Below, piece after piece: positions 6,918 to 55,057 of a stretch of 64,000 bases of DNA. The notes under the pieces were generated by a model. That model was not told the DNA's origin, made no database searches, and was given only the letters and a program-made list of their open reading frames with translations. The first letter of the stretch is position 1; every line of letters begins with the position of its first letter. This DNA comes from Calothrix anomala FACHB-343 (GTDB lineage: Bacteria > Cyanobacteriota > Cyanobacteriia > Cyanobacteriales > Nostocaceae): positions 124,001-188,000 of the forward strand of contig NZ_JACJQG010000004.1 in assembly GCF_014696435.1 (NCBI RefSeq). Direction: 5' to 3'. A program made the translations under genes and the position numbers.

Positions 6918-7078
6918 GGGAGCATCCCAATTTTGACGCAATACCCTAGAAGGGTATTGCTATACCAACAAAGCCTGCCTTCGCAGGCTATCAAACTTTT
7001 AGCCTGCGAAGGCAGGCTTCGTATTTCTAGCCCCACCCTTATAGGGTGAGGGCGTTTTTGCACATTTGGGATGCTCCC
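6918..7078. mobile_element. 161-bp MITE, copy 1 of 3
   Basis: The ends are perfect terminal inverted repeats (GGGAGCATCCCAA ... TTGGGATGCTCCC). Inside are three further hairpins, the largest a 19-bp inverted repeat around AAGCCTGCCTTCGCAGGCT. The element is flanked by a perfect 8-bp direct repeat, AAGTCCTA (6910-6917 and 7079-7086), a target-site duplication. It codes for nothing plausible. Near-identical copies lie at 35706-35866 and 54897-55057. Confidence 0.88.
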
Positions 7079-24880: not shown

Positions 24881-25621
24881 TTAAGCTACATAGTCAAACA
24901 GCATTGTTGTCATGTAGCGATCTGCCCATTCTGTACCAAAGGATTTTTCGAGAACGCGCCGGGTTTTATCATTTTGTTGCTGTTTGGTACAGTAATTTCG
25001 TTGCCCTGCAAGTACTTTGGAAATATCTAGATTTGATGTGAGCGGTGTTTGTTGACTAGCAATTTGACAATGAATGGTTAAAAATTCCCGAACTCGGTTA
25101 AGAAATTTATCTTCTTCTTCAGGGTTTCCGGGACGAATAAATAAACAAAATTCTGAAAAGATATCACCCCACTCTGGTAAGGCGCGTGGTTGAGAAAACT
25201 CCAGCGCGGATAATACAGATAATTTTTGATAATAGCTAGATGGGAGAGTGCGATCGCTACTAATAGGAGACAAATCCGCGATCGCTGCACTAATTCCGCC
25301 TTTCCCGCCAACTAAATCTGTACCAAAGATGGGAATGGCATATTCAGGATTGGGGAACATGACACAATGGAGAATATCTAATCCATTGCCAACCTGAGCC
25401 AATTCTAAATGCAGTTTGCGAAATTGCGGCGTTTGGTAGCAATGATTTTCAATGATGAGCCGTTCGCCTTCTAAATGTCCCTCAACGTATCCTAAACCTT
25501 CAGGTACAGAGTAAGGTGACAAATCTAGATTTTTTTGCCAAATTTCTTCAATAGAATCGGCTAATCTGCGAATTAATTGATTTTGACGGTTTCTGATGGA
25601 GGCTGACATAGATTTCAACAT
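24881..25621 (-). CDS. pcyA: phycocyanobilin:ferredoxin oxidoreductase
   Basis: Reduces biliverdin IXalpha by four electrons from ferredoxin to phycocyanobilin, the chromophore of phycocyanin, allophycocyanin and phytochromes. Length 246 aa is typical. The catalytic residues known from Synechocystis (Glu76, His88, Asp105) are present as Glu73, His85 (DILHCVMFP) and Asp102 (FGTDLVGGKGG). ATG 25621 or 25609 could be the start. An L-box-like element lies 47-64 bp upstream of ATG 25621, in the gene's sense orientation, predicting red-light activation. A kinase and a response regulator lie upstream on the same strand. Confidence 0.95.
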   Translation of the reverse strand: MLKSMSASIRNRQNQLIRRLADSIEEIWQKNLDLSPYSVPEGLGYVEGHLEGERLIIENHCYQTPQFRKLHLELAQVGNGLDILHCVMFPNPEYAIPIFGTDLVGGKGGISAAIADLSPISSDRTLPSSYYQKLSVLSALEFSQPRALPEWGDIFSEFCLFIRPGNPEEEDKFLNRVREFLTIHCQIASQQTPLTSNLDISKVLAGQRNYCTKQQQNDKTRRVLEKSFGTEWADRYMTTMLFDYVA

Positions 25622-25667: not shown

Positions 25668-25685
25668 TGTGCAAAATTTGTGCAG
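25668..25685 (-). promoter_or_regulatory. L-box-like element upstream of pcyA
   Basis: On the minus strand this reads CTGCACA-AATT-TTGCACA, thirteen of fourteen consensus bases of the RcaC-bound L box (TTGCACA-N4-TTGCACA) known from Fremyella diplosiphon. It is in the sense orientation relative to pcyA, the arrangement associated with red-light activation. Confidence 0.7.
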
Positions 25686-25839: not shown

Positions 25840-26211
25840 TTACCAATGGAGAATTCTACTAATTTGCTCTGGGAGATCCAGGGAGTTAAAGGGTTTGGTA
25901 ATCACGCCACTCACGCCTAAATCATTAAACTGACGCTTTTCTGCTGTTTGTGCTTTAGCAGTTAACAGAATTACCGGAATTTGTTCGGTTTCTGAATGAG
26001 ATTGCAGTTCTTTAAAGGTAGCTATACCATCCATATCTGGCATCATCACATCCAACAGAATTACATCAGGTTTTTGAGTTTGTGCAGTCTGGATACCTTC
26101 AAAGCCGGAACTAGCCGTGAATACTTCCCATCCCGCCGCCATTTTGATGCCGAATTGCACAACGGTTTGAATTGTTTCTTCGTCATCAATAATTAAAATT
26201 CGCTTTTCCAT
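25840..26211 (-). CDS. single-domain response regulator (CheY-like)
   Basis: A 123-aa receiver domain without output domain. Acidic pocket Asp9-Asp10-Glu11, phospho-acceptor Asp54 (ILLDVMMPD), conserved Thr (LLTAKA) and Lys (TKPFN) are all present. It starts 10 bp after the histidine kinase stop, so the pair is one operon and a likely cognate pair. pcyA lies 218 bp further along on the same strand. Size and lack of output domain recall RcaF, but similarity alone cannot make that assignment. Confidence 0.9.
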   Translation of the reverse strand: MEKRILIIDDEETIQTVVQFGIKMAAGWEVFTASSGFEGIQTAQTQKPDVILLDVMMPDMDGIATFKELQSHSETEQIPVILLTAKAQTAEKRQFNDLGVSGVITKPFNSLDLPEQISRILHW

Positions 26212-26221
26212 AAATTACCCC

Positions 26222-28345
26222 TCATGAAATCTGGGTGCTGTCAAGGGTAGGTAATGTGAAGGCAAAGGTACTGCCACAACCTGGAGTACTCTCAGCCCAA
26301 ATTCTGCCGTTGTGCTGTTCAATAATTTTGCGGCAGATTGTTAACCCTAAACCAGTACCACCTTTTTTCCGGGAATCTGACGAATCGACTTGTTGAAATC
26401 GTTCAAAGATTCGTTCAAGTTGATCGGCGGGAATACCTTGCCCTTCGTCTCGTACCCGAAATACCACTTCTTTGGGGAAGTTTGGGGAAGTTTGTTCGGC
26501 TTCTACAGTCAGCCAAACAGTTCCCCCTGGTGATGAAAACTTGATAGCATTGCTAATTAAATTTGTTAAAGCTTGTAAGATATAATCGGCATCTGCCCAA
26601 ACTGAGATATCTTGGGGTTGTTTAACTAAAGTGATTTCTTGCTGTTGTGCCATTGCTTGCATTGCCTCTGCTGCTTGGATCGTCAAATTAGCTGCATTAC
26701 AGGCTTGACACTCCATGATCACTTTACCAGACTCAATGCGCTGTAAATCAAGGACATTGTTGACTAAGCGTACTAAGCGTTCAGTGCTATCATCGGCAAT
26801 GCCTAGCATTTGTTGCCCTTCTGCGGAAAGATTGCCCAATCGCCCTGTAGCTAAGATTTTCAGGGCACTGTGCAAGGAAGTCAGGGGTGTGCGCAATTCA
26901 TGACTGATGATCGAAATAAATTCATCTTTCATCCGTTCAATGGCTTTGCGATCGCTAATATCGCTACTTAAAGCGAAAAATCCCTTCACAGCATTCTGCT
27001 CATCAACATCAGGGATGTAAGTCACATCAACGGCTCGCGAACTGCCATCTTTTAAAACGATATCATTTTCATAGTTAACGGCTTGCCCAGATAAAGCTCT
27101 TTGTACATAAACTTGCATTCTGTGGTAGCAATCTTCGCCCCAAACCTGTTGCAGGTGAGAACCATAAATTTCTTTGGGGGATTGTCCCAGCCAATCTTGA
27201 TATGCTTGATTGTTAAAGCGATATTGTTGGCGATCGTCTACATAAGCAATTAGTACAGGCAAGGCATTAGTTATTAAGCGCAGTTGCTCCTCACTCTGTC
27301 GTAACGCTGCTTCCGCCTGCATCCGCACGTTAATTTCCTCTTGTAACTCTGAAGTTCTGGCGGCGACTACTTCTTCTAAGCGTTCTAAAAGTTGAGCTTG
27401 AGATAAGGCAATACTAATTTGATCGGCTAACTGTTGCATCAATTCCAATTCAAAATCTACCCAATGGCGGTAGTTATTGCATTGATGGGCGATTAATAAG
27501 CCCCAAAGCTGATTTTGAGCGCTAGCATTGAGATTTTGGACGATGGGGACAATTAATTTCGCTTTAATCGCAAATTGATCGACAAATTCCACCAAACAAT
27601 CTGCCAAACCAGCTGCCGGATCGTGAACATTCGCGATCGCTCTTACCCGTCCTTGAGCATACAATTGTTGATATTCCTGGGGAAAAACTTCTTGGGGAAA
27701 TTCCAGATCCATGAGTGTGGGGTAATCTGGTAACACCGATTCGCTGATGGTTTTGCCTGTACCATCCGGCAATACATGATAAATTAGCACGCGATCGGCT
27801 TGGAGAATCCGTTGCACTTCCGTCACGGTGGTATGCAGAATTTCCTTGAGTTGTAACGACTGACGAATTTTCAGCGTCACTTCCGAAAACAATTCCACCC
27901 GTTGCTGTTGCTGGCGTAATTCCGCTTGCATCGATTCCCGACGCTGACTAATGTCTCGCAACAGCAGTAAATGACAACGGGGAAGAACATTTGGCGTTAA
28001 AGTATATTCCACCTCTCGCCGACGTTGGCTAGCAGATGCAACTAACAGTTCCCCAATCAATGATTCTTTTGGTAGACAACTCACAGACTTGAGTTGACGA
28101 GTAAATTCTGCAGTAATGAAATTAGATAAAGCTTGTCCTTGGAGTTGCTTGCGGGTTCGTCCGAGTAATTCACAAGCAGCAATATTTAGATCTAGGAAAA
28201 ATCCGCGATCGTCAATTAGGGCGATCGCGTCACGGGCGTTTTTATATAAACTGTTGAGCAGACGCTTGTGAATGCGTCGTTTCTGTTTCGACTTTTTCCC
28301 GCCAAATAGCGATCGCTGCTTATAAGAACGTTTTGACACCTGCAT
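26222..28345 (-). CDS. PAS-GAF-PAS histidine kinase with cyanobacteriochrome-like GAF
   Basis: A 707-aa soluble sensor kinase. PAS at about 32-135; GAF at about 150-318; second PAS at about 350-465; HisKA with His482 (IISHELRTPL); HATPase with N, G1 (DEGQGIP) and G2 (GGTGLGL) boxes to about 700. The GAF domain has the phytochrome/cyanobacteriochrome pattern (DRVLIYHVLPDGTG, GRVRAIA, LWGLLIAHQC) and keeps Cys250 at the bilin-attachment position, but the usual following His is Leu (ADCLVEF). It may therefore bind a bilin in an atypical way. The partner regulator follows by 10 bp. Confidence 0.88.
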   Translation of the reverse strand: MQVSKRSYKQRSLFGGKKSKQKRRIHKRLLNSLYKNARDAIALIDDRGFFLDLNIAACELLGRTRKQLQGQALSNFITAEFTRQLKSVSCLPKESLIGELLVASASQRRREVEYTLTPNVLPRCHLLLLRDISQRRESMQAELRQQQQRVELFSEVTLKIRQSLQLKEILHTTVTEVQRILQADRVLIYHVLPDGTGKTISESVLPDYPTLMDLEFPQEVFPQEYQQLYAQGRVRAIANVHDPAAGLADCLVEFVDQFAIKAKLIVPIVQNLNASAQNQLWGLLIAHQCNNYRHWVDFELELMQQLADQISIALSQAQLLERLEEVVAARTSELQEEINVRMQAEAALRQSEEQLRLITNALPVLIAYVDDRQQYRFNNQAYQDWLGQSPKEIYGSHLQQVWGEDCYHRMQVYVQRALSGQAVNYENDIVLKDGSSRAVDVTYIPDVDEQNAVKGFFALSSDISDRKAIERMKDEFISIISHELRTPLTSLHSALKILATGRLGNLSAEGQQMLGIADDSTERLVRLVNNVLDLQRIESGKVIMECQACNAANLTIQAAEAMQAMAQQQEITLVKQPQDISVWADADYILQALTNLISNAIKFSSPGGTVWLTVEAEQTSPNFPKEVVFRVRDEGQGIPADQLERIFERFQQVDSSDSRKKGGTGLGLTICRKIIEQHNGRIWAESTPGCGSTFAFTLPTLDSTQIS

Positions 28346-30908: not shown

Positions 30909-31613
30909 ATGCCTTCTCTCAACGAAGATTTGATTCGCGCGATCGTTAAAGGTGATATTGCGACTGTAGAAAGCTTATTAGCCCAAGGTGCAGATGCTAA
31001 TACCACCGGAGGCGTGACAGCCTTGGGAGCCAGTAATACAGCATTAATGTGGGCAGCTAGTGAAGGTTATTTCGAGATTGTGGAATTACTGCTAGCTCAT
31101 AATATTGATATCAATGTCAAAAATCCCACAGGTTACACAGCCTTAATGTTTGCCGCAGAAGGCGATCGCCGCAATATTGTATCGTTGTTGCTAGATAGTG
31201 GTGCGACTATTGGCGATCGCAATTCCTATGGCGAGACTGTGCTGATGACAATGGCAAGACGCGGACAAACAGATATTGTGCAACGTCTAGTTAAAATGGG
31301 TGCTGAAATCAATGCCACCAATAACATCGGTGACACAGCCTTATACTTAGCAGCCGATAATGGGCATACATACACCGTCAAGGCATTAATTGAACTAGTA
31401 GCACAAGTAAATACAGAAAACCTCGGTGGTTGGACTCCCCTCATGATGGCAGCCGCCAGGGGCGATTTAGAAACTATGAAAATTTTGCTAGCACATGGCG
31501 CAGACTTTCGCCCCAAAAATCGCTGGGGTGCCACAGCCTTGAGTGAAGCCCGCAATTCCTTTCGTGCAGCGCAAGCAGCAGATTTATTAATCCAAGCAGG
31601 AGCGACAGAGTAG
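30909..31613 (+). CDS. ankyrin-repeat protein
   Basis: A 234-aa protein made almost wholly of about six 33-residue ankyrin repeats, each with the TALM-x-AA(x)G...IV-x-LLL...GA pattern (for example NTALMWAASEGYFEIVELLL and TPLMMAAARGDLETMKILLA). It has no enzymatic domain and presumably binds a protein partner. The bases just before the start are ACGAATT-type tandem repeats. Confidence 0.9.
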   Translation: MPSLNEDLIRAIVKGDIATVESLLAQGADANTTGGVTALGASNTALMWAASEGYFEIVELLLAHNIDINVKNPTGYTALMFAAEGDRRNIVSLLLDSGATIGDRNSYGETVLMTMARRGQTDIVQRLVKMGAEINATNNIGDTALYLAADNGHTYTVKALIELVAQVNTENLGGWTPLMMAAARGDLETMKILLAHGADFRPKNRWGATALSEARNSFRAAQAADLLIQAGATE

Positions 31614-31622
31614 GACAATTGT

Positions 31623-31644
31623 AGAGACGCGATTCATCGCGTCT
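31623..31644. repeat. short palindromic repeat, copy 2
   Basis: Same GACGCGATTCATCGCGTC core as at 19411-19433; followed by GCCCAAT heptamers to about 31695. Confidence 0.7.
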
Positions 31645-31706
31645 TTGATCAATGCCCAATGCCCAATGCCCAATGCCCCATGCCCCATGCCCAATAAATA
31701 ATCATT

Positions 31707-31724
31707 TGTGCAAACCGAGTGCAA
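31707..31724 (-). promoter_or_regulatory. reversed L-box-like element upstream of cpeC
   Basis: The plus strand reads TGTGCAA-ACCG-AGTGCAA; the minus strand is TTGCACT-CGGT-TTGCACA, thirteen of fourteen consensus bases of the Fremyella L box. It is opposite in orientation to cpeC, as reported for the cpeC promoter where RcaC binding represses in red light. It lies 258 bp before the cpeC start. Confidence 0.7.
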
Positions 31725-31737
31725 AAGTCTCTCATTT

Positions 31738-31761
31738 CATCAAGATTTACAAATCTTGATG
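31738..31761 (+). promoter_or_regulatory. perfect 11-bp inverted repeat in the cpeC leader region
   Basis: CATCAAGATTT and its exact complement are separated by two bases (AC). It lies 13 bp after the L-box-like element and could be an operator or, if transcribed, a leader stem-loop. In Fremyella a leader inverted repeat in cpeC is needed for the second (Cgi) green-light pathway. Confidence 0.6.
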
Positions 31762-31981
31762 CACATCTTTACTCGGTCGTAAGAAAATGATCATAACAAA
31801 GCGTATAAAACGCTAAGAAGCTTAATCGCCCAGGACATTACAACTTTCATGTTTATGGAAGCTGGAAATTTTGCTTGCAACAAATCAATCCCACGATTTG
31901 ATTTACCTAGACGATTAATCTGAATTTAATTTACAAATTGAAACATTTTTCTTAAACTTTCGTTAACAGGAGAAACAGTTA

Positions 31982-32842
31982 ATGCCATTTGGACCAGCTT
32001 CACGCTTGGGAGTTAGCCTCTTCGATGAAACCCCTCCCGTTGAGTGGGTACCAGGCCGCTCCCAAGAAGAAGCCGAAACATTCATTAAGGCAGTCTATCG
32101 GCAAGTATTGGGCAATGCCTATGTAATGGAAAGCGAGCGTCTCGTTGTGCCCGAATCGCAATTTAAGTTGGGTGAATTGAGCGTCCGCGAGTTTGTCAGA
32201 GCCGTGGCTAAATCCGAACTTTATCGTTCTCGCTTTTTCACCAGTTGTGCGCGCTACCGGGCGATTGAACTCAATTTTCGCCATTTATTAGGTCGGCCAC
32301 CACTGGATTTAGAAGAAATGCGCGCCCACAGCACAATTCTAGATACTCAAGGGTTTGAAGCGGAGATTGATTCTTACCTCGACAGCGATGAGTATCAGTC
32401 CACCTTTGGGGAAAACATTGTTCCCTATATCCGAGGCTATAAGACAGAAGCTTGTACCAGCATGGTGCAATTTACCCATACCTTCCAACTGGTGCGGGGT
32501 GCTTCTAGCAGCAGCTTGAAGGGTGACTTGTCTGGTAAGGCTCCCAAGTTGAATGCCCTAGTGATTCAAGGTATTCCCACACCAGTAGTCTCACCTGCTA
32601 GTAAGGGTGCAGTGTTCTCTAGTCGTCCCACTGGTTCCGTTACTCGTCTGGGAGTCGATGGCAGTGCAGGTGGTAAAGTTTATCGCGTTGAAGTCACAGG
32701 TTATCGCGCCAAAACCTTCAACAGTATTTCCAAGTTCCGCCGTTCCAACCAAGTCTTTTTGGTGCCCTACGATAAGCTCTCCCAAGAATATCAACGGATT
32801 CACCAACAAGGCGGCGTAATTGCCAGCATCACTCCTGTCTAA
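31982..32842 (+). CDS. cpeC: phycoerythrin-associated rod linker CpeC
   Basis: Rod linker that joins phycoerythrin hexamers in the phycobilisome. A PBS-linker domain occupies about 25-175 (the core is VREFVRAVAKSELYRSRFF and IELNFRHLLGRPP), and a CpcD-like domain about 225-285 (VYRVEVTGYRAKTF...QVFLVPYDKLSQEYQ). Length 286 aa and the opening MPFGPASRLGVSLFDETPP match CpeC of Fremyella as I recall it, distinguishing it from CpcC. An AGGAGA site precedes the ATG. First gene of a cpeC-cpeD-cpeS-cpeT-cpeR series, with L-box-like control upstream. Confidence 0.88.
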   Translation: MPFGPASRLGVSLFDETPPVEWVPGRSQEEAETFIKAVYRQVLGNAYVMESERLVVPESQFKLGELSVREFVRAVAKSELYRSRFFTSCARYRAIELNFRHLLGRPPLDLEEMRAHSTILDTQGFEAEIDSYLDSDEYQSTFGENIVPYIRGYKTEACTSMVQFTHTFQLVRGASSSSLKGDLSGKAPKLNALVIQGIPTPVVSPASKGAVFSSRPTGSVTRLGVDGSAGGKVYRVEVTGYRAKTFNSISKFRRSNQVFLVPYDKLSQEYQRIHQQGGVIASITPV

Positions 32843-32882: not shown

Positions 32883-33632
32883 ATGACATCCCAGACAATT
32901 CTTGAACTTTGGCCGAATAGCAGCTTAGAGGAAGTTCAAACTATCATCCGTGCAGTTTACAAACAAGTTTTAGGCAACCCTCATGTCATGGAGAGTGAGC
33001 GGTTGGTGACAGCAGAATCACAATTGTGCGATCGCTCTATCTCTGTACGGGAATTTGTTCGCGCCGTTGCGAAGTCTGATTTTTATCGCAATCGCTACTT
33101 CTCGTCCTGCGCTCCCTATCGGTTTGTGGAACTGAACTTCTTACATTTGTTAGGACGCGCACCCCAAGATCAACGGGAAGTTTCCGAGCATATTGTTCGG
33201 ACTGTAGCCGAAGGCTACGATGGGGAAATTGATTCCTACATCGATAGTAATGAATACGAAACAGCCTTTGGCGAAAACATCGTACCCTACTATCGCGGTA
33301 AGAATAGCGCTGCTAACTCCAAGCAAGTAGGCTACAACCGGATATTTGCCCTCGATCGCGGCCCTGCTCAAATTGACAGCGCGGTTAAATCTGCTCAATT
33401 GGTGTATGCTGTAGCCACCAACAGCGCCAATGCGATTCAACCCTCTTCATCAACTGTGATTGGTTCTGGCACAGAAAAACGGTTCAAAATTTTGGTCAAG
33501 GGTAGCAAATTTGATAGCCCCCGCCGCATTAGTACTACAGAGTACATTGTTCCAGCTAGTAAGATGACTCCACAAATTCAACGGATTAATCGGACTTCTG
33601 GCAAAATCATCAGCATTACTGAAATTGTTTAA
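32883..33632 (+). CDS. cpeD: phycoerythrin-associated rod linker CpeD
   Basis: A second PBS linker, 249 aa (about 28 kDa), matching the 27.9-kDa phycoerythrin linker of Fremyella in size and in its start (MTSQTILELWPNSSLEEVQT). PBS-linker domain at about 15-165 (VREFVRAVAKSDFYRNRYF; VELNFLHLLGRAPQD) and CpcD domain at about 195-245. It follows cpeC by 40 bp with a GAGGAG ribosome site, so the two are cotranslated from one mRNA. CpeE is the alternative name to exclude; no third linker is present. Confidence 0.82.
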   Translation: MTSQTILELWPNSSLEEVQTIIRAVYKQVLGNPHVMESERLVTAESQLCDRSISVREFVRAVAKSDFYRNRYFSSCAPYRFVELNFLHLLGRAPQDQREVSEHIVRTVAEGYDGEIDSYIDSNEYETAFGENIVPYYRGKNSAANSKQVGYNRIFALDRGPAQIDSAVKSAQLVYAVATNSANAIQPSSSTVIGSGTEKRFKILVKGSKFDSPRRISTTEYIVPASKMTPQIQRINRTSGKIISITEIV

Positions 33633-33667
33633 GCTCATCCTGCCCCTTCTAGGGGCAGGATGAGCTT
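33631..33667 (+). terminator. strong hairpin at the end of cpeD
   Basis: A perfect 17-bp stem with a TCT loop begins inside the cpeD stop codon (arm AAGCTCATCCTGCCCCT). No T-run follows, so it could be an mRNA-stabilising or attenuating structure that separates cpeCD from cpeSTR rather than a full terminator. A second hairpin (GGGTGGGC-AAT-GCCCACCC) lies at 33796-33814. Confidence 0.65.
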
Positions 33668-34422: not shown

Positions 34423-34672
34423 GTTAGCCATCCACCATAAAATCTCACACCAAAGCATGAAAATCTCTCTTAAGAGTCAACAGTCAACAGTCAACAATCA
34501 ACGATAGATCCAAAAATACAGCACTAGTCATTTCTAGTCATATAGATACAACATCAAAACGTGCAGTTTCAATACATACTGATCGCGTTAGCTTTGCTAT
34601 GTCATTTTTCACAAATTAAGGTCATCATTTGAAATTTTCATTCTCCTATTGTTTATTTATCCTCATTTAGTT

Positions 34673-35296
34673 ATGACCTCTTCAATACCACATATTTGCG
34701 AAACTGTATCTAATGATTTAATTACCTTAGCTCGTTGGATGGCAGGTGATTTCAGCAATTATAAACAAGCATACGAAAACCCTAAAGATTACGCCCATAT
34801 TCATGTTTTCTTTCGCCCTTTAGCCTTTGAATTCTTCTCAGGAATTGGGCTTTATTCCGAACAAGTTTATGACTATGATTTGTGGCGACCTTATCGACAG
34901 GGGGTACATCGTTTAGTCGATCAAGGCGACCAAATTTATATCGAAAATTACAGTTTAAAAAACCCTCTTTTATATGCTGGTGCAGCCCGCGAATTAAGCA
35001 TTCTCAAAACTATCACCCCAGATTGTATAGAACGCCGATATCACTGCTCAATGATTTTCCAACGCGAGGGAGATAGATTTATTGGCGGTGTGGAACCGGG
35101 AAACTTATGCTTAATCGAAAAAAATGGCTGTCAGACTTATCTCCACAGTTACGTTGAAATCACGCAAACCACTTGGGTAAGCCTTGATAGAGGGCTGGAT
35201 GTAAATACACACGAGCAGGTTTGGGGGTCTACCTTTGGGCCTTTGCGGTTTGAAAAAAAGGAGAGTTTCGCTGATGAAATTCCAAACATCCTATGA
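34673..35296 (+). CDS. cpeT: chromophore lyase, CpcT/CpeT family
   Basis: A 207-aa CpcT/CpeT protein. In this family the lyase attaches a bilin to Cys-beta155/165 or acts as a chaperone during phycoerythrin assembly. Family segments are visible: LARWMAGDFSNYKQA at the start, HIHVFFRPL, SEQVYDYDLWRPYRQGVHRL, and the Cys/Gly region FIGGVEPGNLCLIEKNGCQTYL. An upstream in-frame TTG at 34649 is possible, but ATG 34673 fits the family. The 3' end overlaps cpeR by 23 bp. Confidence 0.9.
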   Translation: MTSSIPHICETVSNDLITLARWMAGDFSNYKQAYENPKDYAHIHVFFRPLAFEFFSGIGLYSEQVYDYDLWRPYRQGVHRLVDQGDQIYIENYSLKNPLLYAGAARELSILKTITPDCIERRYHCSMIFQREGDRFIGGVEPGNLCLIEKNGCQTYLHSYVEITQTTWVSLDRGLDVNTHEQVWGSTFGPLRFEKKESFADEIPNIL

Positions 35297-35636
35297 AACT
35301 TCTCTAGCCAATCTGGGCATTAAGCCGAATATGCTACCCCCAGAAGCACAGAAAAAAATGCAATGCTGGATTCGCAGCAGACATTTAATTTGTTCTGGCA
35401 ACTTCTTTGTTTTTGAAACTGTAGATTACAGTGCGATTGAGCGTTTTTCTCAATGTGTGGGTGCCTTAGGAGGTACTGTGATTTCTGTCGATCCAATTGA
35501 CAAAATTTGGATGGGCGCTCATCGTCAAGTAATTCTTTATCGGGCAAGAGCTAGTTTGCATACACCTTGCCACAATTTGAAACAATATTGGCTGAAATAT
35601 GGAGGTTTTCGCACCCGATTTGATGAGCAAGTTTAA
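35274..35636 (+). CDS. cpeR: phycoerythrin operon activator CpeR
   Basis: A 120-aa protein starting MKFQTSYETSLANLGIKPNM, in the position of cpeR in Fremyella (last gene of cpeCDESTR). There CpeR is required for green-light expression of cpeBA and pebAB. It has no recognisable DNA-binding motif. The ATG at 35274 has a strong AAGGAG site 10 bp upstream, inside cpeT, whose end it overlaps by 23 bp, which implies translational coupling. Upstream in-frame start 35235 is rejected. Confidence 0.82.
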   Translation: MKFQTSYETSLANLGIKPNMLPPEAQKKMQCWIRSRHLICSGNFFVFETVDYSAIERFSQCVGALGGTVISVDPIDKIWMGAHRQVILYRARASLHTPCHNLKQYWLKYGGFRTRFDEQV

Positions 35637-35686: not shown

Positions 35687-35923
35687 TTGACACTCCCCCG
35701 CTAATGGGAGCATCCCAATTTTGACGCAATACCCTTCTAGGGTATTGCTATACCAACAAAGCCTGCCTTCGCAGGCTATCAAACTTTGAGCCTGCGAAGG
35801 CAGGCTTCGTATTTCTAGCCCCACCCTTATAGGGTGAGGGCGTTTTTGCACATTTGGGATGCTCCCCCTGCTAATTGCTTTCCTTTGGAACGCTCCGCAA
35901 ACGCAATTTAGGGGGAGATTCTT
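35687..35923 (-). mobile_element. IS200/IS605-type right-end relic split by a MITE
   Basis: Read on the minus strand, the two parts join to give AAGAATCTCCCCCTAAATTG ... AGCGGGGGAGTGTCAA, the hairpin-plus-TCAA end seen after the tnpB gene at 39300-39332. The 161-bp MITE interrupts it. No transposase remains. Confidence 0.6.
35706..35866. mobile_element. 161-bp MITE, copy 2 of 3
   Basis: Same terminal repeats and internal hairpins as at 6918-7078. The flanks CCCGCTAAT (35697-35705) and CCTGCTAAT (35867-35875) form a 9-bp target duplication with one mismatch. Inserted within an IS605-type right end. Confidence 0.88.
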
Positions 35924-37885: not shown

Positions 37886-39253
37886 TTGCTAACAAACTAT
37901 GTATACAAACTCAGACCAAATGCAACACAATCAACAAAAATGAGTAATTGGGTAGATATGCTCAGAAGTCACTATAACTGGTGTCTTAATGACCGATTAA
38001 CCCAATATGCTCAACAATTTATTATGGGTGAATATTGTGATATAAGGACTAAAGCTGAAGCTTGTCCGCTTACTTGTTTTGTTAGCAAGAATGGTGCAAC
38101 GGGTGAACCTTGGAAAGAAAGTAAAATCGATAAAAAAGGTAATCCTGTAAATCCACGCCGTAATGCTGGAATGATTCAAGATGCTGCACTACCAGAGCTT
38201 AAAAAAGCTAGACCTTGGTTTGCTGGCATTGACTCAACAGCGTTGCAACAAAATATTAAAAGACTAGATAAAGCCTATGAGAACTTTTTTGACGGTCGTG
38301 GATTCCCAAAATTCAAAAATCGTTCTAATTTCACATCTTTCACGATGACGATGGGTATTAAAATCCAGAAAAATAAAATCTATCTACCCAAATTAGGCTG
38401 GATGAGATTTTATCATTCTCGTCAAATACCCGATGGATTCACAATAAAAGCAGCAACAATTCGCAAGCGTCAAGATGGTTGGTACATATCATTAAGAATT
38501 GAAGATAAAACCATACCTGACTATGTTTCTAGTCCATTGACTAATGTTAAATCAATCCTTGGTTGTGATTTAGGCTTAACAAAATTGGTACATCTTTCTG
38601 ATAATTCTCAAATTGATAATCCAAGGTTTGCAACCAACAAAAAGACAAGACGCACTTTAAAACTACGTCAGCGTCGTATTAGTCGCAAAGTCAAAGGTAG
38701 TGTTAACCGCAAGAAAGAAACCAAAAAAATAGGCAGACTTCATAAGAAAATCGCTGATAAGCGTCAAGCTAGAGAGTGGAAAGTTGCGAATAAAATAATT
38801 TCTAGAAATGTTGATGCAATTGCTATTGAAGATTTAAATGTATCAGGGATGATGAGACGCTGCAAAGTTAAAGTAGACTCAACTACTGGCAGGTTTTTAA
38901 GCAATGGTCAATCTAGAAAGAAAGCATTAAATCGGTCTATTTCTGATGCAAGTTGGAGTGATTTGACTTTAAAAATTGAGTATCTGGCTGCAAAGCAAGG
39001 AAAGGTCGTAATTAAGGTTAATCCTAAGCACTCTAGCCAAGAATGCCGTAATTGTGGTCATGTGGACAAATCTAATAGAGACGGTGAAAAATTCATCTGT
39101 GTTAAATGTGGACACATGACACATGCTGATATTGGAGCGGCTAAAACCATCAGAGATAGAGCATTTGATATGGTACGTGGGGACTCCGCGAAACCTAAAC
39201 GCCCGAAACAACGTAAGGAGAAATCAACACGCACTCCCGTGCAAACGTGTTGA
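37886..39253 (+). CDS. tnpB: RNA-guided endonuclease TnpB (IS200/IS605 OrfB)
   Basis: A 455-aa TnpB, ancestor-type of Cas12. The RuvC triad is intact: Asp228 (GCDLGLTK), Glu315 (AIEDLNVSGM) and Asp415 (HADIGAAK). The zinc ribbon Cys387/390/405/408 (CRNCG ... CVKCG) is complete. It starts at TTG 37886 behind a very strong AGGAGGTGAT site; TTG starts are common in this family. TnpB uses a guide RNA from the element's right end to cut vacated donor sites. Nothing suggests decay of this protein. Confidence 0.93.
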   Translation: MLTNYVYKLRPNATQSTKMSNWVDMLRSHYNWCLNDRLTQYAQQFIMGEYCDIRTKAEACPLTCFVSKNGATGEPWKESKIDKKGNPVNPRRNAGMIQDAALPELKKARPWFAGIDSTALQQNIKRLDKAYENFFDGRGFPKFKNRSNFTSFTMTMGIKIQKNKIYLPKLGWMRFYHSRQIPDGFTIKAATIRKRQDGWYISLRIEDKTIPDYVSSPLTNVKSILGCDLGLTKLVHLSDNSQIDNPRFATNKKTRRTLKLRQRRISRKVKGSVNRKKETKKIGRLHKKIADKRQAREWKVANKIISRNVDAIAIEDLNVSGMMRRCKVKVDSTTGRFLSNGQSRKKALNRSISDASWSDLTLKIEYLAAKQGKVVIKVNPKHSSQECRNCGHVDKSNRDGEKFICVKCGHMTHADIGAAKTIRDRAFDMVRGDSAKPKRPKQRKEKSTRTPVQTC

Positions 39254-54896: not shown

Positions 54897-55057
54897 GGGA
54901 GCATCCCAATTTTGACGCAATACCCTAGAAGGGTATTGCTATACCAACAAAGCCTGCCTTCGCAGGCTATCAAACTTTTAGCCTGCGAAGGCAGGCTTCG
55001 TATTTCTAGCCCCACCCTTATAGGGTGAGGGCGTTTTTGCACATTTGGGATGCTCCC
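54897..55057. mobile_element. 161-bp MITE, copy 3 of 3
   Basis: Same element as at 6918-7078. A perfect 9-bp target duplication, AGTTAATTT, flanks it (54888-54896 and 55058-55066); the first base is the last base of the FHA gene stop codon. Confidence 0.9.

Follow-up and report, generated by a model that had tools for sequence, protein, structure and literature searches.

A reversed L box beside a conserved promoter-like core upstream of cpeC points to type III chromatic acclimation in Calothrix anomala FACHB-343

The cpeC operon and its neighbourhood

The window (the whole stretch of DNA that was analysed, 64,000 nucleotides of Calothrix anomala FACHB-343) carries a phycoerythrin linker operon headed by cpeC and, on the opposite strand to its left, the genes rcaE, rcaF and pcyA. 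The features that matter here are listed below, together with rcaC, which lies on another contig.

24881–25621, reverse strand: pcyA, phycocyanobilin:ferredoxin oxidoreductase (NCBIfam NF002760, 357.9 bits, cut-off 206)
25668–25685, reverse strand: pcyA L box CTGCACA-AATT-TTGCACA, in the orientation of pcyA, 46 bp upstream of its start codon
25840–26211, reverse strand: rcaF, response regulator with a single receiver domain (Pfam Response_reg)
26222–28345, reverse strand: rcaE, red/green photoreceptor histidine kinase, 707 aa (Pfam PAS, GAF, PAS, HisKA, HATPase)
31707–31724, reverse strand: L box TTGCACT-CGGT-TTGCACA, predicted RcaC site, orientation opposite to cpeC
31738–31761, no strand: perfect 11+2+11 palindrome CATCAAGATTT-AC-AAATCTTGATG, left arm variable, right arm conserved
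31746–31784, forward strand: core element TTTACAAATCTTGATG-N14-GTCGTAAGA, proposed promoter core
31756–31761, forward strand: -35-like TTGATG, within the core
31778–31783, forward strand: -10-like CGTAAG, within the core
31788–31792, forward strand: predicted transcription start region, about 7 bp after the -10-like hexamer
31982–32842, forward strand: cpeC, phycoerythrin rod linker, 286 aa (Pfam PBS_linker_poly and CpcD)
32883–33632, forward strand: second phycoerythrin rod linker, cpeD- or cpeE-like, 249 aa
33844–34422, forward strand: cpeS-like gene (Pfam CpeS, 211.7 bits)
34649–35296, forward strand: cpeT-like gene (Pfam CpeT, 236 bits)
35235–35636, forward strand: gene in the cpeR position, 133 aa, found in the same place in L031, L037, L084, L212 and L282–L285
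Contig C58, 95235–97163: rcaC, full-length, with receiver, OmpR-type DNA-binding, Hpt and receiver domains

The first linker gene, 98% identical to its counterpart in Calothrix brevissima NIES-22, is taken to be cpeC from its operon context. The gene in the cpeR position gave no Pfam match, and its name is presumed from the gene order cpeCDESTR. The genome also encodes the phycoerythrin beta subunit CpeB (match above the curated cut-off) and two cpcBA pairs, one of which has two linker genes after it; cpcBA was named from its translation and from family matches under the CpeB cut-off. Phycoerythrin genes and a second phycocyanin operon, the gene content expected for type III chromatic acclimation (CA3), are both present.

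Several smaller features accompany the operon. A perfect 17+17 inverted repeat (33631–33667) directly follows the second linker gene, at the place where L282–L285 and L037 have a third linker gene; the window and L031 are without it. One 23-bp inverted repeat, a small dispersed repeat, occurs three times in the window (6938–6960, 35726–35748 and 54917–54939), once reverse-complemented, and an ORF about 2 kb past the operon (37886–39253) looks by eye like a TnpB-type transposon protein.

The arrangement of the rca genes is unusual. The group rcaE-rcaF-pcyA adjoins the cpeC operon, and a second pcyA, besides the window copy with its L box, follows rcaC on contig C58 (L123:10233–13179). In four loci of other genomes (L210–L213), rcaE, rcaF, rcaC and pcyA are contiguous, and the usual rcaEFC-pcyA cluster seems to have been split here, with pcyA retained at both ends. 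The split is not merely an assembly gap, since the rcaE and rcaC loci of Calothrix brevissima NIES-22 lie 1.6 Mb apart on one contig.

L boxes and Rca regulators

An earlier note, made from the letters alone, had suggested from the DNA upstream of cpeC that the organism performs CA3; it had advised looking for rcaE, rcaF and rcaC, and had stated that lack of an RcaC homologue would speak against its reading. All three genes are there, RcaE and RcaF being encoded in the window and a full-length RcaC orthologue on contig C58. RcaE scored 318 bits against PDB 7ckv (named RcaE) and 371 bits against PDB 8k9o, with 177 of 188 residues identical to the RcaE-type domain of the latter (counted from the alignment), and it is 89% identical to the RcaE kinase directly before rcaC in L217. 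The product of 25840–26211 is 98% identical (121 aa) to the receiver located between rcaE and rcaC in that same locus, and is therefore identified as RcaF. As for RcaC, orthologues in the 48 genomes surveyed show 53–98% identity over their full length, or 59–83% in pieces and short forms, and are separated by a clear gap from paralogues, which do not exceed 46%.

A GAF family search of the genome returned 120 matches. A 476-aa bilin-type GAF kinase on contig C70 (L141) was considered as an RcaE candidate and rejected as not being RcaE; it lies between a response regulator and a gene that by eye looks CpeS-like, a neighbourhood in which light control of a lyase is possible.

The L-box consensus TTGCACA-N4-TTGCACA (14 specified bases) is matched at 13 of 14 bases by the site at 31707–31724, where the forward strand reads TGTGCAA-ACCG-AGTGCAA; the reversed L box described in the earlier note is thus confirmed in both sequence and position. 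The exact pattern TTGCAC-N5-TTGCAC occurs at only two sites in the 9.24-Mb genome, one upstream of cpeC and the other upstream of a cpcBA operon, and 37 further sites, one of which precedes pcyA, carry one mismatch. The backwards pattern, used as a control, gave 7 sites in total. The genome-wide number of one-mismatch sites is about that expected by chance from a base-composition estimate, and a search of the 64-kb window allowing three mismatches found 9 sites for 8.87 expected; it is therefore the positions of the good L boxes that carry the weight.

Thirty of the 39 genomic sites were retrieved as loci and compared with the 14-base consensus. Seven of these thirty show at most one mismatch: the sites upstream of cpeC (13/14), cpcBA (contig C115, 14/14) and pcyA (13/14), three sites within ORFs, and one (C37:608) outside ORFs of at least 90 aa. 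The last (G000:C37:608–625, L011) has one mismatch and is a possible extra RcaC site. The genes cpeC, cpc2 and pcyA are known targets of RcaC, and each of them is preceded by an L box in this genome, in the orientation of the gene at cpcBA and pcyA (direct L boxes) and reversed at cpeC. PMC8256508, with reference to Li and others 2008, assigns repression to L boxes that face the other way and sit at a greater distance from the start; the reversed orientation and far-upstream place of the cpeC L box fit the repressed class as described there.

We then compared the distribution of the site with that of the regulators. The best 80 of 170 cpeC relatives were kept (79 loci), and RcaE and RcaC were surveyed in 48 genomes, namely this one and 47 out of 79 named genomes. 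Allowing up to two mismatches, 25 of these 48 genomes carry an L box at cpeC. Of these 25, 22 have an RcaE orthologue; of the 23 lacking the site, 9 do (10 when a fragmented one is counted). Fisher's test on this co-occurrence, uncorrected for relatedness, gives p values of 0.0007 to 0.002. RcaC orthologues were found in 21 of the 25 genomes. The correspondence is imperfect, since RcaE is kept by 10 of the 23 genomes in which no L box was recognised at cpeC. Conversely, the assemblies of three Nostoc genomes (L038, L039 and L064) have a cpeC L box and gave no RcaE or RcaC match, possibly as a result of recent loss of the system or of assembly gaps, and a 2.8-Mb metagenome-assembled genome (L044) has RcaE and gave no RcaC match.

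These data bear on two other explanations of the L box. The first, that the match before cpeC is due to chance, would account for the chance-like number of one-mismatch sites in the genome and for the lack of excess at three mismatches in the window. It is close to refuted, and we give it almost no credit: both exact genomic sites precede genes known to be targeted by RcaC, and 25 of the 48 genomes searched keep the reversed site at cpeC, mostly at three spacings. The second supposes that cpeC is controlled by CcaS/CcaR (type II acclimation, CA2) and that its L box is a relic. This is very improbable given that RcaE, RcaF and RcaC are all full-length and that CTTTNCNATTT, the CcaR G box, has no match on either strand at 31601–31982. 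In its favour are the relic-like L boxes of L038, L039 and L064, and the fact that the near relative Calothrix brevissima NIES-22 is predicted in PMC9415938 to have both CcaS and RcaE. Given that prediction, another light control may exist beside CA3.

With the three regulators and the L boxes at cpeC, cpc2 and pcyA in place, the CA3 inference of the earlier note holds at the level of sequence, where it is strongly supported; the system would be of a known kind, with an unusual gene layout. Control of the cpeC operon by CA3 through the L box at 31707–31724 is, on these grounds, very probable.

The palindrome and the conserved core

The palindrome begins 13 bp past the L box, again as the earlier note had it (a perfect 11+11 bp inverted repeat), and its last base lies 220 bp short of the start codon of cpeC (31982). 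When the 368-bp gap was randomised 1000 times with a first-order Markov model, a single version had an arm of 11. Because the genome holds no second exact copy of the palindrome, a palindrome-based regulon was rejected.

To see which part of this DNA is conserved, TTTACAAATCTTGATG-N14-CTTATAAGA was scanned against 79 aligned cpeC upstream regions (78 loci from the best 80 of 170 relatives, and the window), L098 being left out because it has only 27 bp upstream. A score of at least 20 of 25 was reached by 42 of the 79 regions, and no score exceeded 18 in a control set of 790 shuffled regions. L071, L078 and L091 were dropped by hand, their CTTRTAAGA half being unfitting or their match chance-like, which left 39 regions (36 distinct). 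In these 39 of 79 regions the right arm of the palindrome and CTTRTAAGA, both near invariant, follow each other at a constant spacing, and the left arm varies. A reversed L box with at most three mismatches stands at a fitting distance in 28 of the 39; no L box is recognisable in the other 11. In Pseudanabaena SR411 (L084:2000–2217), the reversed L box and the core are also found before pebA and pebB. Three other Pseudanabaena genomes likewise have two copies of the module, the following gene having been read in L084 of the four. SR411 is reported as a CA3 strain in PMC11377992. Since the spacing is kept across two different operons, the core is most simply promoter DNA.

The right arm of the palindrome, together with CTTRTAAGA 14 bp on, would form a core promoter. 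Many relatives have TTGACA or TTGATG followed at 16 bp by TATAAG, CATAAG or TGTAAG, an arrangement that resembles a sigma-70 promoter. The window's own hexamers are weak, the -10-like CGTAAG being poor, and all 36 distinct rows end the -10-like hexamer with G, a position at which T is preferred in sigma-70 sites; a generic sigma-70 scan called no promoter at the core. If the promoter reading is right, transcription would start near 31790, giving a leader of about 190 nt and an L box centred near -74. Our literature search found no paper with a mapped cpeC start.

The earlier note had interpreted the palindrome differently, as an inverted repeat in the leader with a part in Cgi, the second green-light pathway; in that role it would be an RNA stem-loop in the cpeC leader acting by attenuation. 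This interpretation draws on the perfection of the palindrome, rarer than chance, on paired changes in some relatives (TAAAG/CTTTA in L045, outer TGT/ACA in L055) and on the two infC genes of the genome: two IF3_C matches were found, so that an IF3 paralogue is present, and F. diplosiphon also has two infC genes, one of which acts in Cgi. The comparison of the arms argues against it. Over the 36 distinct rows, arm pairing averages 7.06 of 10 pairs versus 6.96 when the left arms are re-dealt, and 457 of 2000 re-dealt sets reach the observed value, so that the pairing shows no net covariation; the palindrome as a conserved RNA hairpin was rejected on these counts. Moreover, the right arm is near invariant and at fixed spacing to CTTRTAAGA and the left arm is not, and the element also stands before pebAB and in the 11 regions without a recognised L box. 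Finally, the Cgi stem-loop that matters reportedly lies about 31 nt before the cpeC start codon, far from the 220 bp measured here. We therefore consider the earlier assignment to Cgi improbable and unsupported by the comparison, while noting that some lineages (L045, L055) may, judging from their paired changes, value the symmetry.

Nor did the leader itself reveal a candidate. For the 106 bp immediately preceding cpeC, compared across 15 genomes, RNAalifold returned only 4 pairs, with no compensatory change and no conserved structure; most shuffled versions of the predicted cpeC leader fold about as well as the real one (z -1.15); and folding the sequences of 21 genomes one by one gave no common structure. 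As these three analyses gave no shared structure, the Cgi element was not located by comparison.

A further possibility is that another dimeric DNA-binding protein regulates cpeC from the palindrome as its operator, competing or cooperating with RcaC. Its position is suggestive, as it straddles the proposed -35 region beside the L box, and the sequence TTTACAAA-TC-TTGACATT of relatives resembles by eye HLR1, the RpaB site. Against this stand the poor second HLR1 half in the window, the decay of the left half in many genomes whose right half is intact, and the genomic picture: beside the single exact copy, sites with one or two mismatches form no evident phycobilisome set. We regard such an operator as doubtful. 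Our preferred reading, which we hold to be likely, is that the palindrome is promoter-proximal DNA near the -35 region and not an attenuator.

Spacing of the L box and a model for cpeC control

If the core is promoter DNA, its distance from the L box becomes of interest. The offset given here runs from where the L box starts (its first base) to AAATCTT of the core. Among the 28 regions having both elements it is 44 in 15 (including the window), 45 in 2, 46 in 1, 34 in 1, 35 in 4, 24 in 4 and 58 in 1. Further genomes, many of which overlap the first set, gave 44, 45, 46, 34, 35 and 24 again, and the backwards control pattern gave no match; matches without a preceding TTNAY were counted as chance (5 of 19 genomes in one search, 1 of 19 in another). 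Successive spacing classes (24, 34–35 and 44–46) are roughly one helical turn apart. When the period was set to 10.5 in advance, a fraction of 0.038 of random well-separated triples is as well phased as 24/35/44. This is suggestive of helical phasing between the L box and the core, with few independent events and about three spacing classes behind it. The out-of-phase offset, 58, belongs to L039, one of the genomes without an RcaE or RcaC match; L038 and L064, which gave no such match either, keep the usual 44 and so add no support to phasing. In L037 (Nostoc sp. CHAB 5824), the core is 119 bp from the cpeC start codon, instead of about 231 bp, and the L box offset is still 44.

We tentatively propose a geometry that covers these data, with rather less than even confidence: the green-light promoters of RcaC (cpeC, and pebAB in one Pseudanabaena) would share the core TTYAYAAATCTTGAYG-N14-CTTRTAAGA with a reversed L box at whole helical turns from it, and repression would depend on the face of the helix, an upstream RcaC contacting RNA polymerase or a palindrome-bound activator rather than simply blocking. 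The palindrome would then be a lineage-specific strengthening on the -35 side.

In the control circuit that we envisage, RcaE encoded in the window would, in red light, pass phosphate via RcaF to RcaC. Phosphorylated RcaC would bind the reversed L box at 31707–31724 and repress the cpeC operon, acting on the core promoter across a distance of whole helical turns, while from the direct L boxes the same protein would activate the second cpcBA operon as well as pcyA. Under green light RcaC would be off and the cpeC operon transcribed, and the last gene of the operon, in the cpeR position, would then turn on cpeBA. The components of this circuit that can be read directly in the DNA are the L boxes, the orthologues of RcaE, RcaF and RcaC, and the conservation of the core.

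The circuit closely resembles the Rca system of Fremyella diplosiphon / Tolypothrix PCC 7601, with which it shares an RcaE GAF domain (94% identical), RcaF, a full-length RcaC and L boxes at cpeC (reversed), pcyA and the second cpcBA operon; it differs in layout, rcaE-rcaF-pcyA being beside the cpeC operon here and rcaC with the second pcyA on another contig. With Cgi attenuation of cpeC, reported by Bezy 2011 and Gutu 2013, the locus would have in common a leader of about 190 nt, provided that transcription begins where predicted, and two infC genes, whereas the palindrome is promoter-like and about 220 bp before the start codon. The pebAB operon of Synechococcus PCC 7335, as described in PMC8256508, is a green-light operon that similarly has a reversed L box upstream, the target here being cpeC instead.

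In this genome RcaE, RcaF and two RcaC target sites lie within about 7 kb, with RcaC moved elsewhere in the genome. The comparison would reassign the palindrome from the RNA leader to the promoter. The interesting part of CA3 is how a single response regulator can switch some promoters on and others off via the same DNA site: for the repressed class of RcaC promoters the comparison supplies a specific geometry that can be tested and, if the shared core and the whole-turn position of the L box are real, repression would depend on the face of the helix to which RcaC binds.
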